From positions 1 through 38,836 of the forward strand of contig JASGMC010000009.1 of assembly GCA_030156625.1 (NCBI GenBank): 38,836 bases of DNA, written 5' to 3'. Each line of letters opens with the position of its first letter. The stretch's first letter is position 1. This DNA comes from Methanoculleus sp. (lineage in GTDB: Archaea > Halobacteriota > Methanomicrobia > Methanomicrobiales > Methanoculleaceae). Positions 7,539 to 21,449 of the stretch are shown here, piece after piece. The notes below the pieces were generated by a model. That model searched no databases. It was not told the DNA's origin and saw nothing but the letters and a program-made list of their open reading frames with translations. A program made the position numbers and the translations under genes.

Positions 7539-7683
7539 AGTGTTCAAGTTACGCCGTCAATCGGCCCTGCGGAAGAGGCTATGTATCGTGCGGTGTCACC
7601 CCCGCAAGTTAAACAGATAGCGAAATACAAAAGGGGATAAAGCCCACAGTAGCTCTTGTTTCACCAAACAGGACAAAATTAGA

Positions 7684-7732
7684 GTGGGCCCGATGCGATT
7701 CGAACGCACGACCTCCCGGTTATCAGCCGGGT
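7684..7732. repeat. Left attachment site: displaced 3' fragment of tRNA-Ile
   Basis: Reads in minus orientation from the anticodon stem (ACCCGGCTGATAACC) to the acceptor end and matches 21327-21375 at 47 of 49 positions. The two changes fall in the T arm (T-loop TTCGAAT versus TTCAAAT). It has no 5' half, so it is not a functional tRNA. Confidence 0.9.
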
Positions 7733-7753
7733 TTTCCGACGAGGAAACCCCGG
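7727..7753. other. Inverted repeat at the island edge
   Basis: CCGGGTTTTCC and GGAAACCCCGG form an 11-bp stem with one mismatch around the loop GACGA, beginning inside the att repeat and reaching into the island. It could be a recombinase arm site or a terminator; only the symmetry is seen. Confidence 0.45.
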
Positions 7754-7841
7754 GGAATGGCAAACGGGGCGATATTTACGGGGATTTGATACATCGCTTC
7801 TTTCGCGAACCTCACCTTCTGCTAACCCGCATTTGATATGC

Positions 7842-8009
7842 TTACCCCAAGCGGATATAATCCCTATGAGATGCTGAATGCCCTTTTCCCGCTCTCCATT
7901 GTGATGTACGCCAACATCTCATCGCCGTTGGGGAAACTTTCACCAGTACCCACACCTGCACCACGAGTGCCGTGAGCGCACCGACCATCAGCGTATCAAA
8001 AACCGCCAT
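7842..8009 (-). CDS. Possible small membrane protein
   Basis: A 55-codon frame opens MAVFDTLMVGALTALVVQVW, a single hydrophobic helix at residues about 5-25, followed by a basic, Trp/Arg-rich tail. It is too short to be judged by codon use and has no clear ribosome binding site or TATA box. Small one-helix proteins are common in archaeal viruses and plasmids, which is the only contextual support. The rest of 7754-8069 shows nothing recognisable. Confidence 0.25.
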   Translation of the reverse strand: MAVFDTLMVGALTALVVQVWVLVKVSPTAMRCWRTSQWRAGKGHSASHRDYIRLG

Positions 8010-8069
8010 AGCAAACGGATAGCGCCGCTACTGCCCTATTAGCCACGCTTGGACAATATAAACGCACAC

Positions 8070-8306
8070 TTAATGATTAGGATTAGAAATGTCTTCAAGA
8101 ACTTCTCTAATTATATCGGATTTTAATTTTATCAGCTCTTTTTGATTTTCACGTTCTTCTTCCAAGGTTTTTGCTCGCATCAATTGACCTATTAATGCCT
8201 GATTTAAGTTTGGATATTCCCCGCTCTCAACCTTTCCTTCCAGCCACCTGTATAATACATTTGGAATTCGCCCAGATATCGGAGAAGCACCAGATCGTTC
8301 AGTCAT
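8070..8306 (-). CDS. Small ribbon-helix-helix-like DNA-binding protein with coiled coil
   Basis: 78 residues from the ATG at 8306. Residues 10-45 (SGRIPNVLYRWLEGKVESG, then YPNLNQALIGQLMRAK) fit a ribbon-helix-helix fold: a short strand, a helix, a turn and a second helix. Residues 46-75 are a charged helix or coiled coil (LEEERENQKELIKLKSDII). The start is supported by a minus-strand TATA-like element at 8337-8348, about 30 nt upstream. It is divergent from the zinc-ribbon gene at 8405, and the shared promoter holds three evenly spaced heptamers, plausible operators for this protein (inference). The gene is AT-rich relative to the chromosome and probably regulates the element. I do not recognise a named family. 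Confidence 0.6.
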   Translation of the reverse strand: MTERSGASPISGRIPNVLYRWLEGKVESGEYPNLNQALIGQLMRAKTLEEERENQKELIKLKSDIIREVLEDISNPNH

Positions 8307-8336
8307 TGAGTTAAAAAATATCGTGCCGTAAGTCTG

Positions 8337-8393
8337 TTTAATATATGTATGCCGGGTCAATCATATGGCATACGTTTTATACCCATGTATGCC
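8337..8393. promoter_or_regulatory. Divergent promoters with three 20-bp-phased operator heptamers
   Basis: GTATGCC occurs at 8347-8353 and 8387-8393, with its inverse GGCATAC at 8367-8373. The centres are exactly 20 bp apart, about two helical turns. The plus-strand TATA box TTTTATACC (8374-8382) lies between the second and third copies, 23 nt before the ATG at 8405. The minus-strand TATA-like sequence (8337-8348) abuts the first copy. Both genes would be nearly leaderless and both promoters would be covered by a protein bound to the heptamers. Confidence 0.6.
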
Positions 8394-8404
8394 AATACAT
8401 TTAC

Positions 8405-8680
8405 ATGGAATATAACACACGGGATACGGTGATCGCTCGTCTACCTCTCCATCTCTGGAGATGGCTTAAAAGAGTGACGTGCGATGACGAACATTCAAAT
8501 CGGGATAATCACAGGGGTATCGATAGCATGAAAGCTGCTATCTGTTCCCGATGCGGTGCGGATGGCATCAAGATTGGGATTACTTCGCTGCCTGACAGTG
8601 ACGAAGCCTACGAGCAGTACTTCTGCCTGAAGTGCGGGCATGGATTCATGCTTCGGAAAAGGAAGGAGTTTGATTCATAG
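8405..8680 (+). CDS. RHH-like N-terminus plus zinc-ribbon protein
   Basis: 91 residues from the ATG at 8405, chosen because the TATA box ends 23 nt upstream. Residues 8-24 (TVIARLPLHLWRWLKR) resemble the start of the ribbon-helix-helix protein encoded divergently. Residues 47-83 form a zinc ribbon with two CxxC knuckles (CSRCGADG and CLKCGHGF) about 25 residues apart, like the zinc ribbons of TFIIS/RPA12-type proteins and many archaeal viral regulators. An internal ATG at 8528 would make a 50-residue protein of the ribbon alone; the poor linker between the halves makes a degenerate fusion possible. A nucleic-acid-binding role is likely, the exact function unknown. Confidence 0.5.
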   Translation: MEYNTRDTVIARLPLHLWRWLKRVTCDDEHSNRDNHRGIDSMKAAICSRCGADGIKIGITSLPDSDEAYEQYFCLKCGHGFMLRKRKEFDS

Positions 8681-9080
8681 TTACTGCGGGCATGACTTTG
8701 GCATCTGCGTTGCGGCCTCCTGCAATTGGAAGAGCACCAATTTATCGTGTTCAAAACAGACCAAGGGAAAACCAGATAGCCCTTAGTCGAGGATGATGAG
8801 ACCAGCAAAGGGAATCCTAACGCTTCAAGGTAACAAATAGGCCCACACTCCACTAGAGCCCAAAAGAGATCGGCCGTTATACGTAGTCTGTGAGGCTCTG
8901 GTATCATGTCATATGAAGAGGGTTTGTCGGACTAAGTACCGCCCTACATGTAAACTGATGTTTGAGAAGGCGTATCACACGAGGCACCCGAGCGTCATAG
9001 GGACAGGAAGGCGGTGTGACCACCTGCCTTTGCCACCTCCCCCGGCAGCGCATATCCTACTCAGTCCCCGGTGTACTTGC
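8681..9080. other. 400-base gap without a convincing gene
   Basis: Between the zinc-ribbon gene and the ATPase stop codon no frame looks coding for long. The plus-strand frame with LEEHQFIVFKTDQGKTR near 8720-8785 then PLVEDDETSKGNPNASR is interrupted by several stops and could be a decayed gene, but I cannot name a parent. The minus-strand frame at 8608-8907 is open but has no support. Confidence 0.3.
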
Positions 9081-11852
9081 CTACTCAAACTGGGCTTGCT
9101 CAAACCTCAGGACGTTGCTGTTTTCCTTCACAATCCGTTGCAGGGCTTCGTCAAACTCGTCATCGGTTTCAGCATCGATATCGATCCGGATCCGCACCCT
9201 TACATGCGGCTTTGTCGTGAAGTGCTGAACCACCTCGTCAACGAGATCCGAGAAGGCAACCTTTGCATTTACTGGATCAAGCTCCTTCTTGCCGTAGAAT
9301 CGCTTCTTCTTCAGAGGTGGCAGATGCTCCTCTTTTTCCTCCCGCTCTCTTTCCTCTCGTTCCTCCTCTTGCTCTCCCTCAAGATCCTTCTGCAATTGTT
9401 TCTGATACTCCGCAGCGGCCGCGGGCTCGATCAGCAACAGAGAACTATCAAGGATGATCTGAGAACGTCCCCATCCAAAAGTGAAATCGAGGTACTTCCC
9501 CGATTCCTCCCCTGCCGCAGTACCGAAGTACTCGCGGCTCCCGGCACCTGAAACGATGGCCTCCTTAAACACAGACTCATCTTTCAGCCGGGGGAGGTAG
9601 AGATAGAAGCAAGTCTTATGCCAGACCTCCTGTGCGACCGCCTCCGGGATGCCCTCTCTCCAGAACCAGGTCTTCAGCAACGTCTTGAGATGGACGGGCG
9701 CCCACCTTTCAATAATCACTTCGTTCTCCCGCAGAATGCGTTCGATCTCCTGGCTGAACTGCTGTGCTGACGGGTTGATCTGATACCGCTCCCAAGCGAT
9801 ATCCTGCGATGGCCTCCCGTTGGTCAGCTCCTGCCCCGGGACGAGCAGCCAGCGGTACGCCTCACGCACAACGCGCTGAAATATGTTTTTCGCGTTCACC
9901 ATCTGCTCTCTGGCGTTCTCCCCCATGATATTGTCAAGGATTATCCGCCGGGCTTCGTAATCCTTAACGATAGATTCCCAGGCACACCAGATGCGAGCTT
10001 GATCAGAGAGGCGATCGATGGTATCGGCATCGGCTGCAAGGAAGATTAGACGGTTCTGTTTCTGCCGCGGCTGTTCTCCCCGGTTCTTGAGGTACTCGGC
10101 CGCCCACCATTCTGCGGACTTCAACTGATGACGGCCGTAAGCGGCATCCGGTGGGAGCACCACAAACCGCATTCCCCAGTCATCCGGGATATCGGAGCTC
10201 GGTGTGAAGATATGAATACCGGCAAAGAGCCCGGGCCGTACAATGCGGGCAAGCTCGTTGCGGATCCTCGGCAGGATCTCCTCCCGCTCATTGAAGCGGC
10301 GTTTGCGCTCCTCCATCTCACGCCGGAGGTTCGGCCGAGTATCAAACCAGTACCGTTCATTTCCGATGTTCAGATGGTGGAGGCGATCGGAGAGGCGTGA
10401 AAGGGCGTCAGTGAAAACTCCGATCTGCTGAGAAGGCTGGATACTGCCAAGGAGGATCCGCTCCCGCTCAATACCCCGCGTCACCCGGTCCGATATGTTG
10501 GGCGCACTCCCGAGGAAGATGGTGCGCGCCACCCGGCGGCAGGCCTGCACGGCGCCGAATCGAGTATCACGGTTCTCGATCTCGGTCGTTTCCGCCCGAT
10601 CGCCGTCGATATCGCGCTCAACAACCGGGTCCCAGCCTTGTGGGAGGTAGTAGATCATCTCGTTTCGGGTATCGCCATCGTAGAGCGGGAGGTTGCCGGG
10701 CATGATCAGTAGATCATTATTGTTGCTCTCCCAGAGGCGGTAGATCGCTTTTGCCATCAGCTTGAGCACGCCCCGAGTGCGCTGGAAGTTCTCAAGGGAG
10801 GCCCAGTCTTCGTAGAGGCGATCAAAGAGCTCGGGATGGATGGGGTAGGCAGCGACGAGGCGTTGATAGTACCGGCTCTCCTGAGTTTCATGCGGGAACT
10901 GACCGGAGTTGTCGAGATAGGTCTCGGCGAAGGCGCGGCAGACAGCATCACGTGCAACCGGATCTGCGATACTTGAGAAGAGCCGCCGACGAACGATCTC
11001 AAACGCCTCTTCGGTGGCGACGGGCTTCCAGAGCGCCTGCACCCGGCCGAAGTAGTGTTCCAGCGCCCTGAGCACCTGTGCGCCGCGCTCTCCGCCGGCC
11101 TCGATCGCAGACTCAGGGAGTGATGCAAGGAGGACGGCGTTCGGCACCGCCTTGATTGCCTCTGTCAGCGCCTGGACAAACGAGAGGTTGACGTCGTATG
11201 TGCCGCCGGCATAGCTCTTCCCTTCCTCAAACTGCCGGATATAGGCGACCAGTTCATCGATCAGAATGACGCAGGGGGCGTGGGCGGCAAGGAGGCGGGC
11301 AAGTACGTCTTTCCCGGGCGAAGTGCCGGAAGTGTCCGCCTCCCGGACCTGTGCGTATGCAACGTCACCGCCGAGCTGCCAAGCAAGCTCTCCCCAGAGG
11401 GTGCGGACCTCGACGCTGCCACGGCGCTGGGGAATGTGGGGTGCAAGTTTGGTGCCGTCGAGGACGACGATTCGGGCTTTCGGCGGATCGAGCACTCCCG
11501 CGGCATCGAGGATCGGCGGGATGCCAGGCAGCTCGCTTGCGGGCACCGCCCCTTTCGCGAGATGGTAGACCGCGAGCAGGGTATGAGTCTTGCCGCCACC
11601 AAATGCCGTCTGGAGCTGGATGACCGGATCCCCGCCCCGGCCAGAGATGCGCTGCACTACCGATTCAAGCAGGATGCGCATTCCCTCAGTGATGTAGGTC
11701 CGGGCATAGAAGAGCGCGGGGTCACAATATTCAGGGGTGGCGGTACCGTCATGGACGCGCGAGAGGTCAGCAGCAAATTCAGCCTGCTGAAAGGTGCCCT
11801 GCAGCACGTCTTCATGGGGGATGGCGACTTCGCGCCAGGGTTTCAAGGTCAT
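9081..11852 (-). CDS. hmaC: DUF499 AAA-type ATPase of Hma-like defence operon
   Basis: Large ATPase, 923 residues, third gene of the helicase-methylase-ATPase operon. Walker A is FGGGKTH near residues 84-90, and Walker B CVILIDE at about 194-200 is followed by [16 protein letters not shown]. The N-terminus [17 protein letters not shown] and the [13 protein letters not shown] pattern are hallmarks of DUF499 proteins found with DUF1156 methylases in anti-phage loci. The C-terminal 190 residues carry a strongly acidic and basic segment ([14 protein letters not shown], residues about 810-830) before a final alpha/beta unit. The likely role is NTP-driven loading or remodelling on DNA (inference). 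The ATG at 11852 has GGAG nine bases upstream and follows the methylase stop by 36 nt. The symbol follows PADLOC Hma naming, from memory. Confidence 0.85.
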
Positions 11853-11888
11853 GGGTGGATTCTCCAGTCATAAGGTGTCATCACGTTC

Positions 11889-14795
11889 TCAACTCCACTG
11901 ATCGATCCTTCGTTGCGGCCCTTCTCCCCGCCGGTCGGTTGCGGCAGTCTCGATCGGGTGCCAGGTGGTGATCAGCTCGTTATAGGTCCGGGCATCATCA
12001 GCCCAGCCTTTCCGATCGCAGAGGGTGTAGAGGCGGTAGGCGAGCTGACGGATCTGCTGGGAGCGGGCGGGCATCTTTGCGAGGAGTTCACCGGCAGGGA
12101 CCTCCCCGCCGCTCTGGAAGGTTCTGCTCAGATGGTGGAGCGCCTCCCAGACGGGGATCCGGGGATCGGTCTCCAGATCCCAGGTGTTTGGGTATTCGCT
12201 GGCGCGGAGAAGCCGGACCTTGCCGCCGCCAGATGCAAGGACGCCAGCGGAGGTTACGCCGTCAACGGAGGTTCCTTTTGCACGGGCGAGCGTATCAGCG
12301 GTTCCAAATGGCCCTTCCTTCCAGCCGTACTCCTCAAACCACTGGATGCAGAACCGAGTGTCGGGATCGAGGTCACCCTCAGCCTTCGCGAGGTGCTCGT
12401 CGAGAGCCCTGTTGATCAGGATCAGGGCGTCATGGACGGAGAGAGGGGTGCCGTCTGCCTCCAGCACCGCTGGATACCGAGAGTAGACAGCCATACCGGG
12501 ACCGATTGAGGCCTGCGCCAGATCCACAGGCGCGATCGGGGTAGCTCCTTCCTTACCACCAGTCATCTCTTCCAACGCCTCTGGGAGCTCGGCCTTCAGC
12601 GCACGGATGAACTCTGTGCGGGAGATGGGGGCGGCATCTGGGTCGCGCTTGCGGCAGACAAGGACAATGGAGGAGGCAAGGGCATTTGTACCCATACCAA
12701 TTATTCGATATTCCTGTTCGCTTCTCATCGGCCATGTTCCGGTGACTGTGAAACCTGCCTTCAGCACCGCTTCGAGGAATGCCTCCCAACCACGCGAGGT
12801 GGTAACAGCATTCTTCGTTTCTGACTGCTTGAAGGCATAGTAAATTGTTACCGGGAAGGCAGGATGTGCCTGTGCCGCGAGCCGGCGCATCGCCTCAGTC
12901 ATGCCGTCAATAAAGAATTTTTCTGCCATGACTTTTGATCCATGACGGTGGGGTAACGCCACGAGCTCTTCCGCCTTCGGGACAGCCATTGTGGCAAAAA
13001 GTGAGGGACAGCTAGCCTTCAGGGAGCGGCGGAGCCAGACGTAGAAGAAGTCAGAGAGATCGGAATAGCCAATGTTGTCATAGTAGGGGGGATCTGTCGA
13101 GATAATTTTATTAAAGGCAATGTCGTTTTGCGAAGCGTTCCGCATTAATGCTTGTCCTGCGGCGTTATTTGAAAGATATTGTAGACAGTCCATTTGATAG
13201 TTTATATGAGTGATAAACCCACCAACAACGTTCTCGAGAATATTAGCCTCGCCAAAATCCCAAACCATAGGTATTGCTTGACGACTAAAAAGATTCATTA
13301 TTTTTTCATTTCCTGGAACCCATCTTGTGCAGATATTGTTGAAGTCGGCAGCGCGATCTACAGCGAACGCCAGATACATCGCCACCGCATCCGAATACGC
13401 CGTCGCTCCGTCACCGTCAGCCTCCAGTCCCCGGCCATCATCAGGCATCCCAGCAGCAAGTGCATCTGCCTTCACCCGATCGCGTGCCTCACCGATAAGA
13501 TCTGAGAAGGAATTGAGAGCGACGAGCTGGCGAGGAGTGAAGAGAGTCCCCCATTCGTTAAAACCATAGGAATAGCAAGTACCGCCGCTTAACCGCTCCG
13601 GCACAGCGCCAGAGGGGGTCCATGTTGGCCGCGCCTTTCTTGCTATATTCTCCATTTCTGATGTAGGTGAGAGGTAGACGCGACCCCGTCTCCCTTCTGC
13701 GACAATTGCCATCATACGGACTCCCATCCTGCCCGCCTGGCCTTCAGATTTGATATATTTTCCATCTATAGGACTTTCAGAGAAGATGCACCTGAAAGTA
13801 GCCCCTTTTTTACCAGCCTTTGTGCCTAAGCCAACCCTATTAGTATTTGAGGGCGTTCCTATCCGGACATTAAACCGATAGGCATTATTCTCCCTCACCG
13901 GCTCAATGTAGGCTTCTTTGCCCTCTTTATTTGAGAGCCAGAAACTGGAAACAAGCGGCACCTCCACATCCACATACGCGGGATTCGGGCTCTTCACAGT
14001 CCGCGCCCAGAGCCATGCGATCACGGTCAACTCTTCCCCGACATACTTCCGGAGATCCGGCCTTTCAGCCGCCATCTCCTCAGTGATCCGCACCTTCGGG
14101 TAGAGGTGCCCGATTCGTCTCTCTGCCTCATCCCGCATCCACTGTCCGTAGTGCCGGACATCCTCAGCAAGCCCGGTAGCCCCCTGCCATGCATCAAGCC
14201 GCCCCTGCTCGCGGGCCTTTGGATGCCCCGGCGGTCTTCCCGCAAACTTCGGCGGGATCTCGATCATCGCCTTATTGATCAGCACCGCCACCGGATTCAA
14301 ATCGGACGCACATGCTTCAAGCCCTAGCCGTTGCGCCTCCAGCGGGATAGCACCGCCGCCGGCGAAGGGATCATGAAATGCCGGGAGTTTTTCCGGGTTG
14401 AAGAACTCTGCAGCCTGAGGGTGGTTCCTATTCAAGTAGCAGGTCTCCTGCCAGCTCTTCTGGATCTCCGCACGGGCCTGAGCGAGCAGGGTCTCATTGT
14501 CGGTGTTCTTCCACTTTACGAGCTCGCGTATGATCGCAAAGAGTCGCTCCCGCTCGGCCTCCGCCTTCTCCCGGCTCATCCCGCGACCGAGATGCCGCTC
14601 GTAGCCGGGGTCGTTGACGAGCTGCGCAAAGAGCACCGCCCGGGCCGCTGCAAGCGGGCGGCGCGCCCACCAGAGGTGCAGACCGCGAGGGTGGGCACCA
14701 ATCCCGGGCATTTTCTCATATGCACAGGCAGCGCTAATATCCACCAGTGGCAGCGCCACTTCAATCAGTTTTTTTGGGGTTTTGATCGTGGTCAT
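11889..14795 (-). CDS. hmaB: DUF1156 DNA methyltransferase of Hma-like defence operon
   Basis: Adenine- or cytosine-N-methylating DNA methyltransferase, 968 residues. The DUF1156 N-terminus is residues 10-62 ([35 protein letters not shown]). SAM motif I is [17 protein letters not shown] at about 142-158, with acidic partner SDLNPVAV. The catalytic motif DPPYYDN lies at about 566-572 followed by [14 protein letters not shown]. The order motif I then DPPY and the large insert between them fit DUF1156 proteins. It would mark self DNA so the partner helicase and ATPase spare the host (inference from the Hma and BREX/DISARM analogy). The start overlaps the helicase stop (ATGA, 14792-14795), so the two are coupled. 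No separate specificity subunit is visible; recognition must lie in this protein or its partners. Confidence 0.88.
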
Positions 14796-17700
14796 AGTAT
14801 TCTTCCTTGTGATGCATTCAGCTCCGCCCGGGCGAGCAGCGCGGAGAGATCGAGGTTCTTACTCACCTCCGCCCAGTCAGGTTCTTGTGAGAAGGGCTTC
14901 CTGACATAGAACGGGCCTTCATAGTGACCGCCATCAACAATCACAATGGCGAGCACAAACTTCTCGCCCTGATTCAGGGCGTAGAGGATCTCGTTTCTGG
15001 AGACGGTGATTGTCGTCTGGCCCTTCGCCCGGCCCTTCACCTCGATATGCCGCTCTTCGGCGATACTGTCGTCCGAACGGTACCGGATTGACGTAAGATC
15101 CCACCCGCAATTCTCAGCTGAGACATCGACAACCCGGCAACCCCGGCGCTCTTCTGCCTCTCTCACGGCCCGCATCGCCACCGCCTCAATATGGGCCCGT
15201 GCTGCCGCATCGACCGAGGTGACTGCCACCTCCCTTTGCTCAGAAAGCATCCCGGCAGGAATGATGATCGCCGCCCCGACGATCTTCGGAGTTGCCGGGA
15301 CGACGTGGCGCATCGCCTCAAGCTCTTCTGTCCGGGCCTTCAGCCGCTCATTCAGCTCATCGATCGTCCGGCGGACGTTCTCAAGCGTGAGCCGGACATC
15401 TTTGCCAGCGGCGATATCGTCTTTCAGCTTCACGTACCGGTCCGACCAGTAGTTGATCTCCTGCACCAGCCGTTCGCGAACCGCTGCAAGGGTCTTATCG
15501 ACTTCACGCACCCGGCGCTCCCGTACCTCTGTGAAATGGTCCGGGACCAGCCGTTCAGAGGCATAGGCGAGCGTCCGGCGTTCAAGGCCCTCCGTGATCC
15601 AGGGTGCCGAGAGGAACTCCTGCACTTCTGCAGCCGCACTGGGATCGATCGGCTTAAGGTCGAGGTGGGGTGCATACCCGGCATGGGCGGCCTGCCCTGC
15701 CTCATCAAGCGTGACAAACTGCAGCCGGCGCGAGATCACCCGATCTGGCCTACCGCCCTCCAGCACCGCATGATCGATGATCAGCAGTACTTTCGGCGCC
15801 GTGGAGGTATCCGCCGGATCGACAAAGACCGCACCCCGGGTGAGCGTGGGGCGGTACGCTTCCAGAATGAGATCTACCACCGCCTGCATCAACGGATGAC
15901 CGGGATGGATCAGGCTCGCCACCGGCGCTCCCATCCGATCAAGTAGCCGGACATACTGCTTCTCAAAGCAGATCCGCTCATACCGCTTCAGGACGGGATT
16001 GATGTTCCGGCGCTCTCTTCCGCTGATCTGGCGGTCCCGTTCCCTGATCATCGCCGGGACATGGGGGATTTCCCACCGCCCCTCCTCTCGCTGGCGCAAC
16101 TCACCACCAAGAAGGCCAAATGCCTTCGTAAAAAACGACCGGATAAAGTAAGGCTGGAGTTTCCGGGCCTCGGCCTTCTCCATCTCCTCCTTCACGGCAA
16201 AGAGTCGTTCTTCCGTCATGATCTCCTTGCAGAGGGCGTCTCTCTCGATGATAGCCATCAGGTGCGAGGTATCTAACGCGACATCGACGGTCCTGAACAG
16301 TCGCGCGCGGACCTCGGGATCATCTCCATACCGGATCGCCTCGATCAAGAGATCGCGCAGGGACTTCTCCTCAAAGACTCTCCCAAGGATGTCGAATACT
16401 CTGCCCCCAAGCGCCTGCCGCTCGTTCTCCAGCTTCTGAAAGAGCCGCAGGAAAACGTCACCCTCCCGGGTTTCGGACGCCACCATATTCCAGAGATGGC
16501 AGACCTCAGTCTGCCCGATGCGGTGGATCCGGCCGAACCGCTGCTCAAGTCGGTTGGGGTTCCAAGGTAGATCGTAGTTCACCATCAGGTTGGCGTTCTG
16601 CAGGTTGACACCCTCACCCGCGGCATCCGTCGCCACCAGCACCCGGGCATATGGATCATTGCGGAAGATCTCCTGCACCTTTCGCCGCTCCTCACGCCGG
16701 ATGCCGCCGTGAATGGTGACAACTGCCTCCTCCGAACCGAGCAGACTCCGGATCCGCTTGATCAGGTAGTTGAGGGTATCGCGGTACTCGGTGAAGATGA
16801 TCAGTTTCCGCTGCCGCCCCTGAGCATCTCGCATCTCCGGCGTTTCCTGCAGGAGTCTTGATAACTCGTCCCATTTGCGGTCCTCGATGGACAAGACGAC
16901 CTGCCGGGCCTGCTCTTCGAGGCGCTGCAGGGTCCGCACCTCACCCTCAAGTTCCGCGATAGTCCAGGAGGCGGTCGCCTGATCGACCACCTTCTGTTCT
17001 GCCTCTTCGTACTCTTCGGCAGTCAGCTCGTCTTCGTTATCCCAGCCCACCGGCTGAAGAGCCTCTTCTCGGAGGGTATCGGCAAGGCTCCTGCCTCTCA
17101 GGGCGAGTCTCTCCTCTTCGATCCGGCGCTGAAGCCTAGTGCGCCGCCTCTTGAGCGACTGGTAGATCGCCTCCGGGCTGGAGGCAAGGCGGCGCTGGAG
17201 TGAGGTTAGCGCAAAACCGACCCTCCCCTTCCGTGCACCGTCCAGAATGCGATCGGCCTTATTCATCTCCTCTCGGACATACTGTGTCACCGCTTCGTAG
17301 AGGATAGTCTCCTGATCAGAGAGCCGGTACGTAACAGTACTCGCCCGCCGTTCCGGGAAGAGCGGCGTGCCAGCGAAGGTGACAAGTTCTTCCTTGACCA
17401 TCCGGCGCATCAGGTCCGAGACATCCACCTGATGAGCGCCATCGCGGTACCTGCCATAGAACCTGTCTGAGTCGAGGAGTGAGAGAAAGAGCTGAAAGTC
17501 TTCTTCCTTGCCGTTGTGCGGGGTTGCCGTCATGAGGAGGAAGTGCCGGGTATGTGAGCCGAGCAGTCTGCCGAGCTTAAACCGGAGTGTCTCTGAACGT
17601 TTCGACCCGAAATACGTGGCCGACATTTTGTGAGCCTCGTCAACCACTACGAGATCCCACCGGACATGCCTCAGTTTCTCCTGGAGCTCCTCGTTGCGGG

Positions 17701-18328
17701 AGAGCTGGTCAAGCCGGGCGATCAGGAGAGGATGCTCCTCGAAGGGATTACCGCTGCGTGACTGCTGATCGAGCTCGCGGGAGAAGATTGTAAAGTCAAG
17801 ACCGAACTTCTCATACAACTCGTCCTGCCACTGCTCGACCAAGCCACCCGGTGCGACGATCAGGATCCGCTGCGCGTCTGCCCGCATCAGGAGTTCGCGG
17901 ATGAAGAGCCCAGCCATGATCGTCTTGCCAGCGCCGGGATCGTCGGCGAGCACATAGCGGAGCGGAAGGCGGGGAAGCATGGACTCGTACACAGCACTAA
18001 TCTGATGTGGCAGGGGTTCGATGGTGGAAGTGTGGACCGCCATCATCGGATCAAAGAGATAGGCGAGATCGATCCGGTAGGCTTCAGCCGCCAGTTTATA
18101 GTCCTCGGCATTCGCATCAAAGGACCACGGCCGACCAGCTTCTACAAATGAGAGGGTCTGCTCCTCGGTCCGGTAGACCAGTCGCTCTCTCAACTGGCCG
18201 GTCTCGGTTTTGTAGATCAGCGTAATGGCATGATCGCCGACGCGCTCGGCTCTCACCACCCGTACGGGCTTATTGGATTCAATCCCACTGATGAGGGTGT
18301 CTTCTCTAATATCTTCCAGTCTGAGCAT
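14792..18328 (-). CDS. hmaA: SNF2/RapA-type helicase with DUF3883 domain, Hma-like
   Basis: Superfamily 2 DNA translocase, 1178 residues, first gene of the defence operon. Walker A DDPGAGKT (129-136), DEAH box VVVDEAHK (230-233), motif [15 protein letters not shown], and motifs [23 protein letters not shown] near 585-605 show an intact motor of the SNF2/RapA group. The C-terminal 100 residues are a DUF3883 domain with [11 protein letters not shown] then TITVSRNE, related to the PD-(D/E)XK fold; EVKG supplies the E-x-K pair, so nuclease activity is possible but unproven. The ATG at 18328 has AGGAG eight bases upstream. The 402-nt region separating it from the divergent Mrr gene holds the operon promoter. 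Helicases of this class probably scan unmodified foreign DNA (inference). Confidence 0.88.
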
Positions 18329-18730
18329 TGCCTTACTCCTGATCGCTATGGATGTCTCGGGGCATCCGATGATGTATGCATATTGTATGGGGTGGCCTTT
18401 TCAGCAATACCTGCGTACGGTAGTGAGATGGGCGATAGGACATTTAATTAATTTCCCATTAACCCCTTTGAATATCTGCAGAGTGCCATCGGATGATGGG
18501 GGGGAGGATTGTCCCAACCCATCTCCTTTATTCTTCGCTGAATCTTAATTGCTGTAGAGCTCTGTGAATCTATGTATATAGGGCATCTCAAAAGAGTTAA
18601 TTATAGGTCGATATCTTCAATGATGGATCCCTTAAATTCTGGAACACTATCCTGACCCCAATCTCGTCGCACATAATTTCCGAACCCTATAAATCACCTT
18701 TATCCAACCAAATGATAATACAATTGTCTT
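18329..18730. promoter_or_regulatory. Divergent intergenic region between helicase and Mrr genes
   Basis: AT-rich, with no gene that I can see. For the Mrr gene, CCTATAAATC (18689-18698) lies about 35 nt before the ATG at 18731 and fits a TATA box with a leader of about 10 nt. For the helicase operon, minus-strand TACAATATGCATAC (about 18372-18385) and GGAAATTAATTAA (about 18443-18455) are candidate TATA elements; neither is decisive. A CCCATT...GGG-rich patch near 18500 has no assigned role. Confidence 0.4.
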
Positions 18731-19726
18731 ATGAGAGTTCCTGAAGGGTCTAGGGTTATCGATGCGGATAATATGTCTCTCGACGAATGGTTGGACTTAC
18801 TTGCCTCAGAAAAGAATGAAAATATCTTGTTCGTTGACTATATGTTTCCAAACGATACCTGCCGTGACTCCTATTTGGAAACAGTATGCGACCGTGAAGA
18901 AAATGAGGTTAAGTGGCTACTCCGTAAATTTTTAATCCCGTCTGGTTCGTTCAGTAAGGACGAGATCACTCTTTCTTCGTTAATCGATCACATAAAACAG
19001 AACCCAGATAAGGCGGATAAAATAAAAAATCTTGAGTTTTTCAGGAGACTTGTTATTTCTGCATCACAAAAAGGAGAGGGAAGAATACAACCATGGGAGG
19101 GCATTACCTGGGCTCTCGATCTCCTTCCGAATTACCCAAGATACGCGATAAATGCTCTTGAAGCATATTTTGCTGCGCATGTAATGTTTTTACCTGATGG
19201 GAGGATAACAGGATTATCCGATGCTATTGCAATAATTAGGGCGAAGTTTATCCAAAGCGCTTCACCAGAAGAAATATTCTCGAAATTTAGCTCACGAGAG
19301 TTTGAACATCTTGTTGAATCCCTATATCATGCAATGGGCTACCAAACGATACTCACAAAAGAGGTACGTGATGGGGGGAGAGATATTATCGCAAGACAAA
19401 CAGAATTAGGTAAACGTGAAACAGCGTTAATCGAGTGTAAAAACTGGAGGAAAGTGGTTGGGGTAGACCGTGTACGCTCTCTGTTAGGTGTGGTTACAGA
19501 TGAAAAGGCATCCCGAGGAGTTGTTGTAACTTCATCACGATTTACTAAACCTGCCAAAGAGTTTGCGCAAGGAAATAAAAGCCTTGAACTCATCGATGGG
19601 GATCTACTGAAAGTAATGCTGAATGAACACTGCGGAACTAACTGGTCTATCCATGCAAACTATTTGATAATGGAAAGTATAAAGCGGCAGACCAAGCCAG
19701 AGGGATCAACAAAGTACTCCGACTGA
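18731..19726 (+). CDS. Mrr-family restriction endonuclease-like protein
   Basis: 331 residues. The C-terminal half (about 195-300) is an Mrr-cat domain of the PD-(D/E)XK nuclease superfamily: SREFEHLVESLYHAMGY, then GGRDIIA with Asp218 and ALIECKNW with Glu235 and Lys237, then GVVVTSSRFTKPAKEFA. All catalytic positions are present, so cleavage activity is likely. The N-terminal 190 residues are all-helical (DEWLDLLASEKNENILFVDY; WEGITWALDLLPNYPRYAIN) and may sense damage or partner proteins; I do not recognise them. Mrr proteins of this type cut modified or foreign DNA. It is transcribed away from the Hma operon and is markedly AT-rich, consistent with transfer or with a separate acquisition. 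It may be an accessory nuclease of the same system or a stand-alone defence gene. Confidence 0.85.
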   Translation: MRVPEGSRVIDADNMSLDEWLDLLASEKNENILFVDYMFPNDTCRDSYLETVCDREENEVKWLLRKFLIPSGSFSKDEITLSSLIDHIKQNPDKADKIKNLEFFRRLVISASQKGEGRIQPWEGITWALDLLPNYPRYAINALEAYFAAHVMFLPDGRITGLSDAIAIIRAKFIQSASPEEIFSKFSSREFEHLVESLYHAMGYQTILTKEVRDGGRDIIARQTELGKRETALIECKNWRKVVGVDRVRSLLGVVTDEKASRGVVVTSSRFTKPAKEFAQGNKSLELIDGDLLKVMLNEHCGTNWSIHANYLIMESIKRQTKPEGSTKYSD

Positions 19727-19843
19727 AGAGTATATGACTTATCTAAAATTCTTCTGGAGATGAACTCTCTTCTCTGCGAGGTGATAGCACGGCAAAGTCG
19801 TGTTCACTTTCTGATCCCAGTTGGGAGATATGTGGTGGCATAT

Positions 19844-19985
19844 CTCTCCCCTCCATTTTTCCCTTTTTCTTCCCATTTCCCCTCAATTTCTCTTCTCTTC
19901 TCCTATTTTCTCCCATTTCTCCCCCTCAATTCCTCTTCTCTTCTCTTATTTTCTCCCCCATATTCTCCTTTTTCTCTTCGTTTCT
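19844..19985. repeat. Polypyrimidine tract with a two-copy tandem repeat
   Basis: About 140 bp in which the plus strand is almost entirely C and T. Two imperfect copies of a 42-46-bp unit (19879-19920 and 19921-19966) each contain CCCCTCAATT, CTCTTCTCTTCTC and TATTTTCTCCC. Homopurine-homopyrimidine tracts of this length can adopt triplex (H-DNA) structure. The overlapping 107-codon frame (19760-20083) is low complexity and is rejected as a gene. Confidence 0.8.
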
Positions 19986-20134
19986 TCTCCGGAAACGTGC
20001 GGTCAGCTTCAGTAAAAGAGCAGCCCAACCGGATGCTTGGGAGTACCAACAGTGTGGTGAAAACGCACGCACAACAAGACTGATAGATTATCTGCTCTTT
20101 TTGTTGCCACCCTAAACAGCGTAAACAGCGCGCC

Positions 20135-20227
20135 ACGCCACATCGTCAAATCGTCGAGGAGACCTCAGCCCTCTACGGCATCCCGGCGGAGTGTGTGGAA
20201 GAGGTAGTGGCCGCGGTCCCGGCCTGA
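20135..20227 (+). pseudogene. Possible 3' remnant of a lost gene
   Basis: A 30-codon segment ending at TGA 20225-20227 reads with GC-rich, protein-like codons (RQIVEETSALYGIPAE then CVEEVVAAVPA). It has the helical, acidic look of a protein C-terminus and differs in composition from the AT-rich sequence around it. Upstream it degenerates and meets a stop. No start codon fits. It may be the tail of a gene interrupted during island rearrangement; the family is unknown. Confidence 0.3.
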
Positions 20228-20239
20228 AAAATAGTGTTT

Positions 20240-20815
20240 TCAGTTGGTGGAGATGGCCGGGTCATCATCGCCATTGTTTGACTGCGATATTCCAGATGCT
20301 GGGTTCTTATCCTGCTGAGATTGGTTTTGTTGGTTCAATTCGTTAAGGACTTTATCTATCAACTTTGCCTGACGAATGTGTTCTTGCTTCAGTTCAACGA
20401 GGGTTTTTTTCATAAATACTACTTGCCTGAGAGTTGATTGTGCGTCCCGATTAGCCTGACAAACATATTTTTGAAGGTCCATAACCTTCGAGTCCATGTT
20501 GATGTGCTTTTGATCACTGTTCGTATCTTTAACAGTACTGCCTGCAATAGCAAACAGAGCAAAAATCAGACTAAAAACAGTATATACTTCAATCGTTTTT
20601 TCAGGGTCTTGAGTCAGCGGAATAATAGCGAGTATTAACTGTAATATTACAATCACTATGAGTGTTGCAGTCCAGATTTGAAATTTCCCCCATAATCCTA
20701 CTTTCTGGTAATTTCCAATTAATTGTGCAATCAAGATTGCAATTAAAACCACTGCAAATGGATAAACAAGTGGCGACACTGACAGGATCATAGACAGGAA
20801 CGGAATAGAGATCAT
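20240..20815 (-). CDS. Three-helix membrane protein with cytosolic coiled coil
   Basis: 191 residues, unknown family. Three hydrophobic helices at about 12-36, 44-66 and 76-92 are followed by a long soluble tail (95-191) with heptad-like helix LRQVVFMKKTLVELKQEHIR and a Gln/Asn/Asp-rich end (NELNQQNQSQQDKN). The start is ambiguous: the ATG at 20815 and the ATG at 20791 both sit at the same place in two tandem 24-bp repeats, so the N-terminus MISIPFLS may be an added copy. No clear ribosome binding site is seen. It is AT-rich and lies alone near the right end of the island. Membrane proteins with coiled-coil tails are frequent effectors in defence loci, but no such role is shown here. Confidence 0.65.
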   Translation of the reverse strand: MISIPFLSMILSVSPLVYPFAVVLIAILIAQLIGNYQKVGLWGKFQIWTATLIVIVILQLILAIIPLTQDPEKTIEVYTVFSLIFALFAIAGSTVKDTNSDQKHINMDSKVMDLQKYVCQANRDAQSTLRQVVFMKKTLVELKQEHIRQAKLIDKVLNELNQQNQSQQDKNPASGISQSNNGDDDPAISTN

Positions 20816-20834
20816 AGATAGGAACGGAATAGAT
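20787..20834. repeat. Tandem 24-bp repeat at a gene start
   Basis: Two adjacent copies, ATCATAGACAGGAACGGAAT plus AGAG and the same with two changes, cover the start region of the membrane/coiled-coil gene and duplicate its ATG (minus strand) exactly 24 bp apart, keeping frame. Confidence 0.85.
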
Positions 20835-20963
20835 TACTAGGAGAATAAGCCTTCCTGTTTGCTCTCCTTCCCCCTTTTTCGACGAATGCGCGACTCCTGC
20901 TCCCCCCTTCCGTGTTGCCCTCTCATGTACGACCCCTCCCCGCAAATTTTGCCCCTCCGAAAC

Positions 20964-21110
20964 TGTCCGGACACTTTCGGCTATCCGAAACCATGACCGC
21001 GCGCGGCCCATTTACAGCCCCCATTTTGGTTACCACCTCTTTAAGACCCCCCGCACAGAGCATTAGGTAACCCGAAAGTGTCCGGACACATCCGGACATG
21101 TCCGGACACT
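20964..21110. promoter_or_regulatory. Operator-like TGTCCGGACA palindromes upstream of an RHH gene
   Basis: TCCGGACA occurs at 21081, 21091 and 21101, exactly 10 bp apart, inside a nearly symmetric 32-bp block (21079-21110) that includes the perfect palindrome GTGTCCGGACAC. A further copy lies at 20964-20980, and the 17-bp CCGAAAGTGTCCGGACA at 21072-21088 is its perfect inverse. The block ends 27 nt before the RHH start codon. One-turn spacing is typical of cooperative ribbon-helix-helix repressor sites; an iteron-type origin is the other possibility. Confidence 0.65.
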
Positions 21111-21137
21111 AGAATAGAAACGCAGAGAGAGGAGAAA

Positions 21138-21449
21138 ATGGCGAAAAACAAAAAACCCAAGCGAATTAGAGAACGGTTACACGTTACGCTTGATCCGGAG
21201 GTCTACAAACTGATAGAAGATAGCGGCGTTAACGCCTCCCGATTGATAGATAAAGCCGTCACCGCGTTGTTTTCCCGCGTTGACCACGTTTCTATCCTCG
21301 TTTCATCGAAAGAGGCTCAAAAAGAAGTGGGCCCGATGCGATTTGAACGCATGACCTCCCGGTTATCAGCCGGGTGCACCACCAGCTATGCTACGGGCCC
21401 TCATACACTCATATTAGTGCCTATAAATGTTGTACAATCTTCGATTTAA
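21138..21449 (+). CDS. Ribbon-helix-helix protein reading into the tRNA att site
   Basis: 103 residues from the ATG at 21138, which has GGAG four bases upstream. Residues 1-50 are a clear RHH domain: a basic arm MAKNKKPKRIRER, strand LHVTLDPEVYKLIEDS, then NASRLIDKAVTALFS. From residue 64 the frame is simply the antisense of tRNA-Ile and runs to a stop at 21447-21449 beyond it, so the last 40 residues are imposed by the integration site. In an excised circle the frame would instead pass through the att repeat and continue for 34 codons from 7732 to a stop at 7834-7836 (inference). The upstream phased palindromes suggest autorepression. It probably controls island maintenance or excision; no family name can be given. 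Confidence 0.65.
   Translation: MAKNKKPKRIRERLHVTLDPEVYKLIEDSGVNASRLIDKAVTALFSRVDHVSILVSSKEAQKEVGPMRFERMTSRLSAGCTTSYATGPHTLILVPINVVQSSI
21327..21375. repeat. Right attachment site within tRNA-Ile
   Basis: 49-bp direct repeat of 7684-7732 with two mismatches, covering the tRNA from the anticodon arm to the discriminator base plus one flanking base. It marks the right boundary of the island. Confidence 0.9.
21328..21400 (-). tRNA. tRNA-Ile (anticodon GAU)
   Basis: 73 nt on the minus strand. Acceptor GGGCCCG pairs with CGGGCCC, discriminator A; D stem GCAU/GUGC; anticodon stem CCCGG/CCGGG with loop CUGAUAA (GAU); T stem AUGCG/CGCAU with loop UUCAAAU. CCA is not encoded. This is the intact copy restored by island integration. 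Confidence 0.96.
21421..21428 (-). promoter_or_regulatory. TATA box of tRNA-Ile
   Basis: Minus-strand CATTTATAG lies 21-29 nt before the tRNA 5' end, the canonical archaeal spacing. Confidence 0.65.

Follow-up and report, generated by a model that had tools for sequence, protein, structure and literature searches.

The integrated element and the array at its end

The window, i.e. the complete stretch of 38,836 nt of Methanoculleus sp. DNA analysed here, carries an element integrated into a tRNA-Ile(GAT) gene (21327–21400, minus strand). Its borders were defined from the sequence and by comparison with an unoccupied site. One copy of the attachment site (att) lies within the tRNA gene (21326–21375), the distal copy, which is the original tRNA 3' end, is found at 7683–7732, and the element interior occupies 7733–21325. 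The two copies share a 50-bp core, are 13,643 bp apart and show two mismatches within 45 bp. The near-identical strain Methanoculleus sp. SM3-B2 (L037) has the exact empty site, with flanks of 100% identity over 1,254 bp and 99.93% identity over 2,875 bp that join in the 50-bp core. Since the distal att is identical to this empty site and the tRNA-side copy differs from it at two bases, the 3' half of the tRNA gene must have come with the element. The insertion is recent, as the flanks are 99.9–100% identical to the empty-site strain.

As cargo, the element carries a complete HMA defence system, consisting of the HmaA helicase (14792–18328), the HmaB adenine methylase (11889–14795) and the HmaC AAA+ ATPase (9081–11852), all on the minus strand and all full length according to sequence matches (E = 0). 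Together with an adjoining Mrr-type restriction endonuclease on the plus strand (18731–19726, also a sequence match), the system spans 9081–19726.

At the tRNA end of the element, a 103-aa ORF (21138–21449, plus strand) crosses the att copy at 21326–21375. It encodes a ribbon-helix-helix (RHH)-like domain, RLHVTLDPEVYKLIEDSGVNASRLIDKAV, with the beta-strand RLHVTL at aa 13–18 and helices at aa 20–29 and 33–45, followed by about 40 residues that are read from the antisense strand of the tRNA-Ile gene. The protein itself matches RHH_3 with E = 0.012, below the Pfam cut-off, and a Pfam search found no match to the N-terminal domain PF07935. The AF2 monomer model shows both helices, with a pLDDT of about 90 there, and no assigned strand; Foldseek searches of RHH monomer models against PDB and BFVD gave nothing or meaningless matches. 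The RHH assignment therefore relies on the motif, the predicted helices and the family, in which the member L105 passes the CcdA cut-off (25.6 vs 22.4) and the family RHH profile (A1) matches CcdA in the PDB with E = 0.0017.

Upstream of this ORF we found a short array of palindromes. Three plus-strand copies of the octamer TCCGGACA start at 21081, 21091 and 21101, so that the initial annotation was right in describing three copies at an exact 10-bp phasing, here at 21079–21108, ahead of a gene for an RHH-like domain. In terms of 10-bp units, which have no strand, the array consists of box 1 (TGTCCGGACA, 21079–21088), box 2 (CATCCGGACA, 21089–21098) and box 3 (TGTCCGGACA, 21099–21108), all recognised from the sequence and by family comparison; the block 21077–21110 is an inverted repeat of 88%. 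A third perfect TGTCCGGACA palindrome is located at 20964–20973, within 20957–20980, where 20964–20980 is an exact 17-bp reverse complement of 21072–21088. This is the match that had been described as a distant inverted copy. The match is real, but the octamer is nearly self-complementary, and the site is better termed a fourth palindrome. Every unit being palindromic in itself, there is no difference between "direct" and "inverted" copies. The distances between the centre of the fourth palindrome and those of boxes 1, 2 and 3 are 115, 125 and 135 bp.

As the initial annotation had proposed, the arrangement is not a product of chance. The octamer occurs nine times in the window vs 2.1 times expected, a count reached in 0 of 100 shuffles, and a triple of identical octamers at 10-bp spacing is present once and in 0 of 200 shuffles. 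The whole 2.16-Mb assembly contains six copies of TGTCCGGACA, three of them at this locus. The array is preceded by a TATA-like element (CTCTTTAAGA, 21037–21046, plus strand), the predicted promoter of the ORF judging from its sequence and from TTTAW clustering in the family, and by a CCGAAA flank (21072–21077, plus strand) that adjoins the first box and, on inspection, recurs in the family. It is followed by the Shine-Dalgarno sequence AGGAG (21130–21134, plus strand). Further upstream, a tandem 24-bp duplication (20786–20833) lies at the start of a 191-aa ORF on the minus strand (20240–20815).

The RHH ORF as one half of a split integrase

Since the last 40 aa are read from the antisense strand of the tRNA, a search with all 103 aa mostly returned tRNA genes. 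It was repeated with the RHH part (aa 1–63) and then with a 20-sequence profile. Relatives were detected in 62 of the 232 genomes from the order; further ones came from Archaeoglobus-like genomes, which belong to the same phylum. We compared 81 loci, the window and 80 relatives. A convergent tRNA gene follows directly downstream in 70 of them, representing 17 kinds by anticodon; the RHH ORF is open into this tRNA gene in 60 of the 70 and broken in the other 10. In ten loci the tRNA end recurs as a partial second copy 1.5–13.6 kb upstream, and in two of these ten an ORF matching PF16795 (archaeal phage/suicidal integrase) is situated just inside it. Further catalytic partners were added by a PF16795 search.

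In all five elements whose RHH frame is intact (L178 and L204–L207; att core 28–47 bp), the RHH ORF and the catalytic ORF, int(C), are in one frame across the att core, so that both are a single gene in the excised circle. Unsplit versions of this gene exist as well: RHH-integrase ORFs are present at L180 (396 aa, Pfam 1.4e-21), L229 and L234 and on the plasmids pT26-2, pGE2 and pTN3. Profile A1 recovers int(N) in the relatives that have an in-frame int(C), and one unsplit integrase (P0002) matches the RHH region of the window in a tblastn search against the element (E = 1.5e-4). The RHH gene is therefore almost certainly int(N), the N-terminal half of a suicidal archaeal integrase of the SSV/pT26-2 type (PF16795), and not the ordinary island repressor gene for which it had been taken; it has been fused across the tRNA gene.

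No PF16795 int(C) in the same frame was detected in the element interior, elsewhere in the window or in its genome, and the window contains no convincing remnants, so we classify the gene as an orphan int(N) and not as an integrase. We infer that int(C) was lost very recently or that the element moved with help in trans. The same genome harbors a second orphan int(N) (L156; G000:C32:848-1027) at a tRNA-Val(CAC) gene, with an array of TATGGCCATA boxes at a lag of 20.

Some family members use tRNA genes differently. A few of the Archaeoglobus type meet a tRNA gene on the same strand instead of a convergent one, and at L166, L168, L175 and L176 int(N) runs into the 5' side of the same-strand tRNA, which suggests a second mode of tRNA use. 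We also noticed a Methanosarcina-like integrase (L242, G345) with a pT26-2-like catalytic part and an apparently different, non-RHH N-terminal domain; N-terminal modules of such integrases appear to be swapped.

Phased boxes in the family and their relation to the RHH domain

Pairs of palindromic 10-mers were scored in all 81 start regions at all lags from 8 to 33. High-scoring pairs were confined to lags of 10 (13 loci), 11 (2), 20 (18), 22 (4) and 32 (1). Shuffled sequences gave close to none and 160 random positions in the same loci none at all. The strict two-box score was reached by 30 of the 81 loci, a number that undercounts arrays unlike the frame TRT....AYA used for detection. The box words include TGTCCGGACA, TGTGCGCACA, TGTACGTACA, TATGGCCATA, TGTATGAACA and TGTCATGACA. 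In the Archaeoglobus-type members L273 and L276 (also L169 and L175), whose strand reads RMT(I/V)W, the TGT....ACA boxes are replaced by GGACGTCC words, perhaps another specificity class. The start regions of pT26-2 and pGE2 contain phased GTGGGCC repeats, and that of pTN3 contains one GTGTACGTACAC box. The unsplit ORF of L180 was considered as an arrayed integrase and rejected, as there is no clear array upstream of it. The initial annotation had named a missing array beside a conserved gene as evidence against its reading. We find that the array accompanies the family, although many decayed members have no clear one.

Most arrays are situated between a TATA-like motif and the Shine-Dalgarno sequence. 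TTTAW clusters 36–40 bp before the first box (about 38 bp) and 57–63 bp before the last. In archaea the distance from the TATA box to the transcription start is usually about 25 bp. The boxes would thus begin some 10–15 bp past the predicted start, a position at which protein binding would obstruct initiation or elongation. The position is also related to the att site: the spacing between the centre of the last box and the tRNA 3' end shows a phasing near 10–10.5 bp (28 clusters, R 0.46, p 0.003; 9 clusters, p 0.04). A distal box, in contrast to the array, is rare. It is present in just 4 of about 55 loci (the window, L106, L138 and L139), always 112–115 bp upstream of the first array box, and looping to a fourth copy, which the initial annotation had envisaged, was rejected as a general mechanism for this reason. 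Control of other operons of the elements by the RHH protein was rejected too, since such boxes are scarce in the rest of the elements.

If the RHH protein reads the array, its DNA-contacting residues and the boxes are expected to change together. We compared the half-site TGTnn with the second beta-strand residue in 42 protein clusters. Histidine was associated with CC (14) or GG (4) half-sites in 18 of 22 cases, N or K with GC in five of nine, and S, T or Y with AC or AT in seven of nine. The mutual information was 1.01 bit (permutation p = 5e-5; the loci are related, and p-values uncontrolled for ancestry are indicative), and a partial Mantel test controlling for identity outside the strand gave p = 2e-4. 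Among the histidine proteins, an R ahead of the strand goes mostly with CCGG boxes and a Q, P, T or A at this position with GGCC. The integrase of pTN3, which was outside the fit, combines an RLYITL strand with the GTGTACGTACAC box at its start, as a Y predicts. L143 and L177 are exceptions. In weak, decayed homologues that had been held out, the rule fitted three of the six loci that had scored boxes and to which it could be applied; we therefore rejected a strict code and claim a statistical association.

The box sequence follows the adjacent RHH protein and not the host. In the genome of the window (G000), RLHVTL is accompanied by CCGG boxes and ARHITL by GGCC boxes, and G036 has CCGG and ACGT arrays at different elements. 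Moreover, elements at different tRNA genes have the gene and the array in common. Judged from sequence comparison, cooperative binding of RHH proteins to the phased array, as was suggested from the window, is the best reading: the array accompanies the gene family and covaries with the RHH beta-strand, and the RHH domain very likely binds it. We consider it very improbable that the array is the target of a different regulator, encoded by the element or the host, and that the neighbouring RHH gene is a coincidence. Any binder of the array is a prediction, but the box sequences follow the RHH protein within one host, and the pair of gene and array is retained across integration sites.

A probable operator, possible arm sites and the fate of the severed half

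What would the RHH domain of an integrase do at such an array? We favour the explanation that the array is the operator of the integrase itself, probably bound cooperatively by the RHH domain both before and after the split, so that int is autoregulated. In the excised circle, the RHH domain, the att core and the tyrosine-recombinase domain would lie in a single ORF, and the expression of the integrase would be limited by RHH dimers that occupy successive 10-bp boxes just past the predicted transcription start. Integration into the tRNA gene would cut the ORF. Int(N), i.e. the RHH domain with its tRNA-antisense tail, would remain under its own promoter and operator and would probably maintain repression there, also on related incoming elements, while the catalytic half would be stranded at the far end and often lost, as in the window. 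RHH binding, repression and action in trans are the steps of this model that we infer. Site sequence and protein appear to change together across archaea, which suggests that the leftover half still binds the array and controls its own promoter.

The main alternative is that the array consists of arm-type sites. As lambda Int does at its arm sites, the intact integrase would bind it through the RHH domain, loop out the roughly 220 bp that separate it from the att core and so assemble the recombination complex, and any effect on transcription would be secondary. The phased distance between array and tRNA 3' end, which is kept despite differing start codons and protein lengths, fits such a role; an operator alone would not need it. 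Also, the int(C)-less element of the window has retained att, array and int(N), and its insertion distinguishes the genome from the near-identical strain with the empty site; a helper integrase that depends on these sites in cis would lead to this pattern. However, the phasing test is weak after allowing for relatedness, and the position of the array is tied to the TATA-like motif as well. According to PMC5495485, Int-pTN3 recombines in vitro on a 43-bp att without helpers, and a review (PMC8371274) states that Int-pT26-2 likewise needs none. A purely cis-acting site, finally, does not predict coding constraint on int(N) where int(C) is missing. We therefore regard it as unlikely that the array serves mainly as arm sites; it is possible that it serves as operator and arm site together.

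This constraint also bears on the alternative that the array, a promoter or repeat feature in decay, no longer has a function and that int(N) is a pseudogene left by integration. Such decay would agree with the broken int(N) ORFs (10 of 70) and with the scarcity of int(C), which most genomes with int(N) lack or have in broken form (int(C) was detected in 19 of 231 genomes vs the RHH profile in 62 of 232). It would not agree with the perfect 10-bp phasing, the covariation with the protein or the recurrence of arrays in two archaeal groups and three intact plasmids. In addition, int(N) is under purifying selection without a detected int(C) partner in four pairs of relatives, in which amino-acid changes are fewer than expected (Fisher p = 1e-4, 1e-3, 0.005 and 0.04; two of the four comparisons have one sequence in common), and at L153 stop codons interrupt the int(C) beside the distal att, whereas the int(N) is uninterrupted and constrained. 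It may be that the constraint is partly older than the loss of int(C), but it favours a present role of Int(N), and decay of the whole unit appears very improbable.

The operator model has a bearing on the known puzzle of suicidal integrases, namely why an enzyme should be maintained that destroys its own gene when it acts. Should the N-terminal half that is cut off function as a repressor at an operator of its own, splitting would serve regulation and be more than damage. We can tentatively extend this to a genetic switch, in which the freed RHH repressor might lock the resident element and silence related incoming integrases; pairs of array and RHH domain might then diversify like phage immunity groups, and int(C)-less elements such as the HMA carrier might keep int(N), array and att for this purpose or for mobilisation in trans. 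The findings suggest that int(C)-less elements with defence genes as cargo may move with such help, and they extend split integrases to mesophilic methanogens.

MetJ and CopG are RHH autorepressors that act on arrays of short palindromes spaced by about one helical turn. The integrases described here resemble RHH autorepressors of the CcdA/CopG/MetJ type in combining an RHH-like domain with their own upstream short palindromes about one helical turn apart, but the domain is the N-terminus of a recombinase and becomes free-standing only through splitting of the gene. With lambda integrase they share a separate N-terminal domain, here predicted to bind DNA, and tandem sites near attP; the fold is different, the array is about 220 bp from the core, and the related Int-pTN3 needs no arm DNA in vitro. 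The integrases of SSV-type fuselloviruses have the same PF16795 catalytic domain and are also split on integration, whereas the N-terminal domain of the SSV5 integrase is PF07935 and not RHH.

The closest counterparts are the suicidal integrases (PF16795) of the pT26-2 and pTN3 plasmid families from Thermococcales. They have the att core inside the gene, are split on integration into tRNA genes, contain an RHH-like N-terminus by motif (weak CcdA/BrnA matches in pT26-2 and pGE2, RLYITL in pTN3) and display phased repeats or a single box at their start. In contrast to the hyperthermophiles stressed in the literature, the hosts are Methanomicrobiales and Archaeoglobi here, and the copy in the window has no int(C). 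Int(N) and int(C) have been considered inactive pseudogenes, and multimerisation was assigned to the N-terminal part (PMC8371274). This review does not mention an RHH domain, nor did a term search find one in PMC5495485, PMC6972569 and PMC4158269. In the open-access literature we found no report of an RHH domain or an array in archaeal integrases; subscription journals, above all the 2020 paper on Int-pT26-2, may hold one. The N-terminal domain of the pT26-2/pTN3 type, so far mainly characterised as poorly conserved and multimerising, would thus gain a testable DNA-binding role. The predicted sites include those of two plasmids whose integrases were already purified and assayed.

A search of IMG/VR with the RHH protein, an unsplit integrase and the pTN3 and pT26-2 integrases gave no matches. 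The ArcVen-P3 provirus of Archaeoglobus has an SSV-like integrase that is split, with int(N) at one end and int(C) at the other, and a term search of its description (PMC4158269) returned neither an RHH domain in int(N) nor an operator array. RHH-like genes do adjoin the split integrases of Archaeoglobus pleomorphic proviruses, namely gp31 of AvPV1 (BK065155.1) and gp17 of ApPV1 (BK065154.1).
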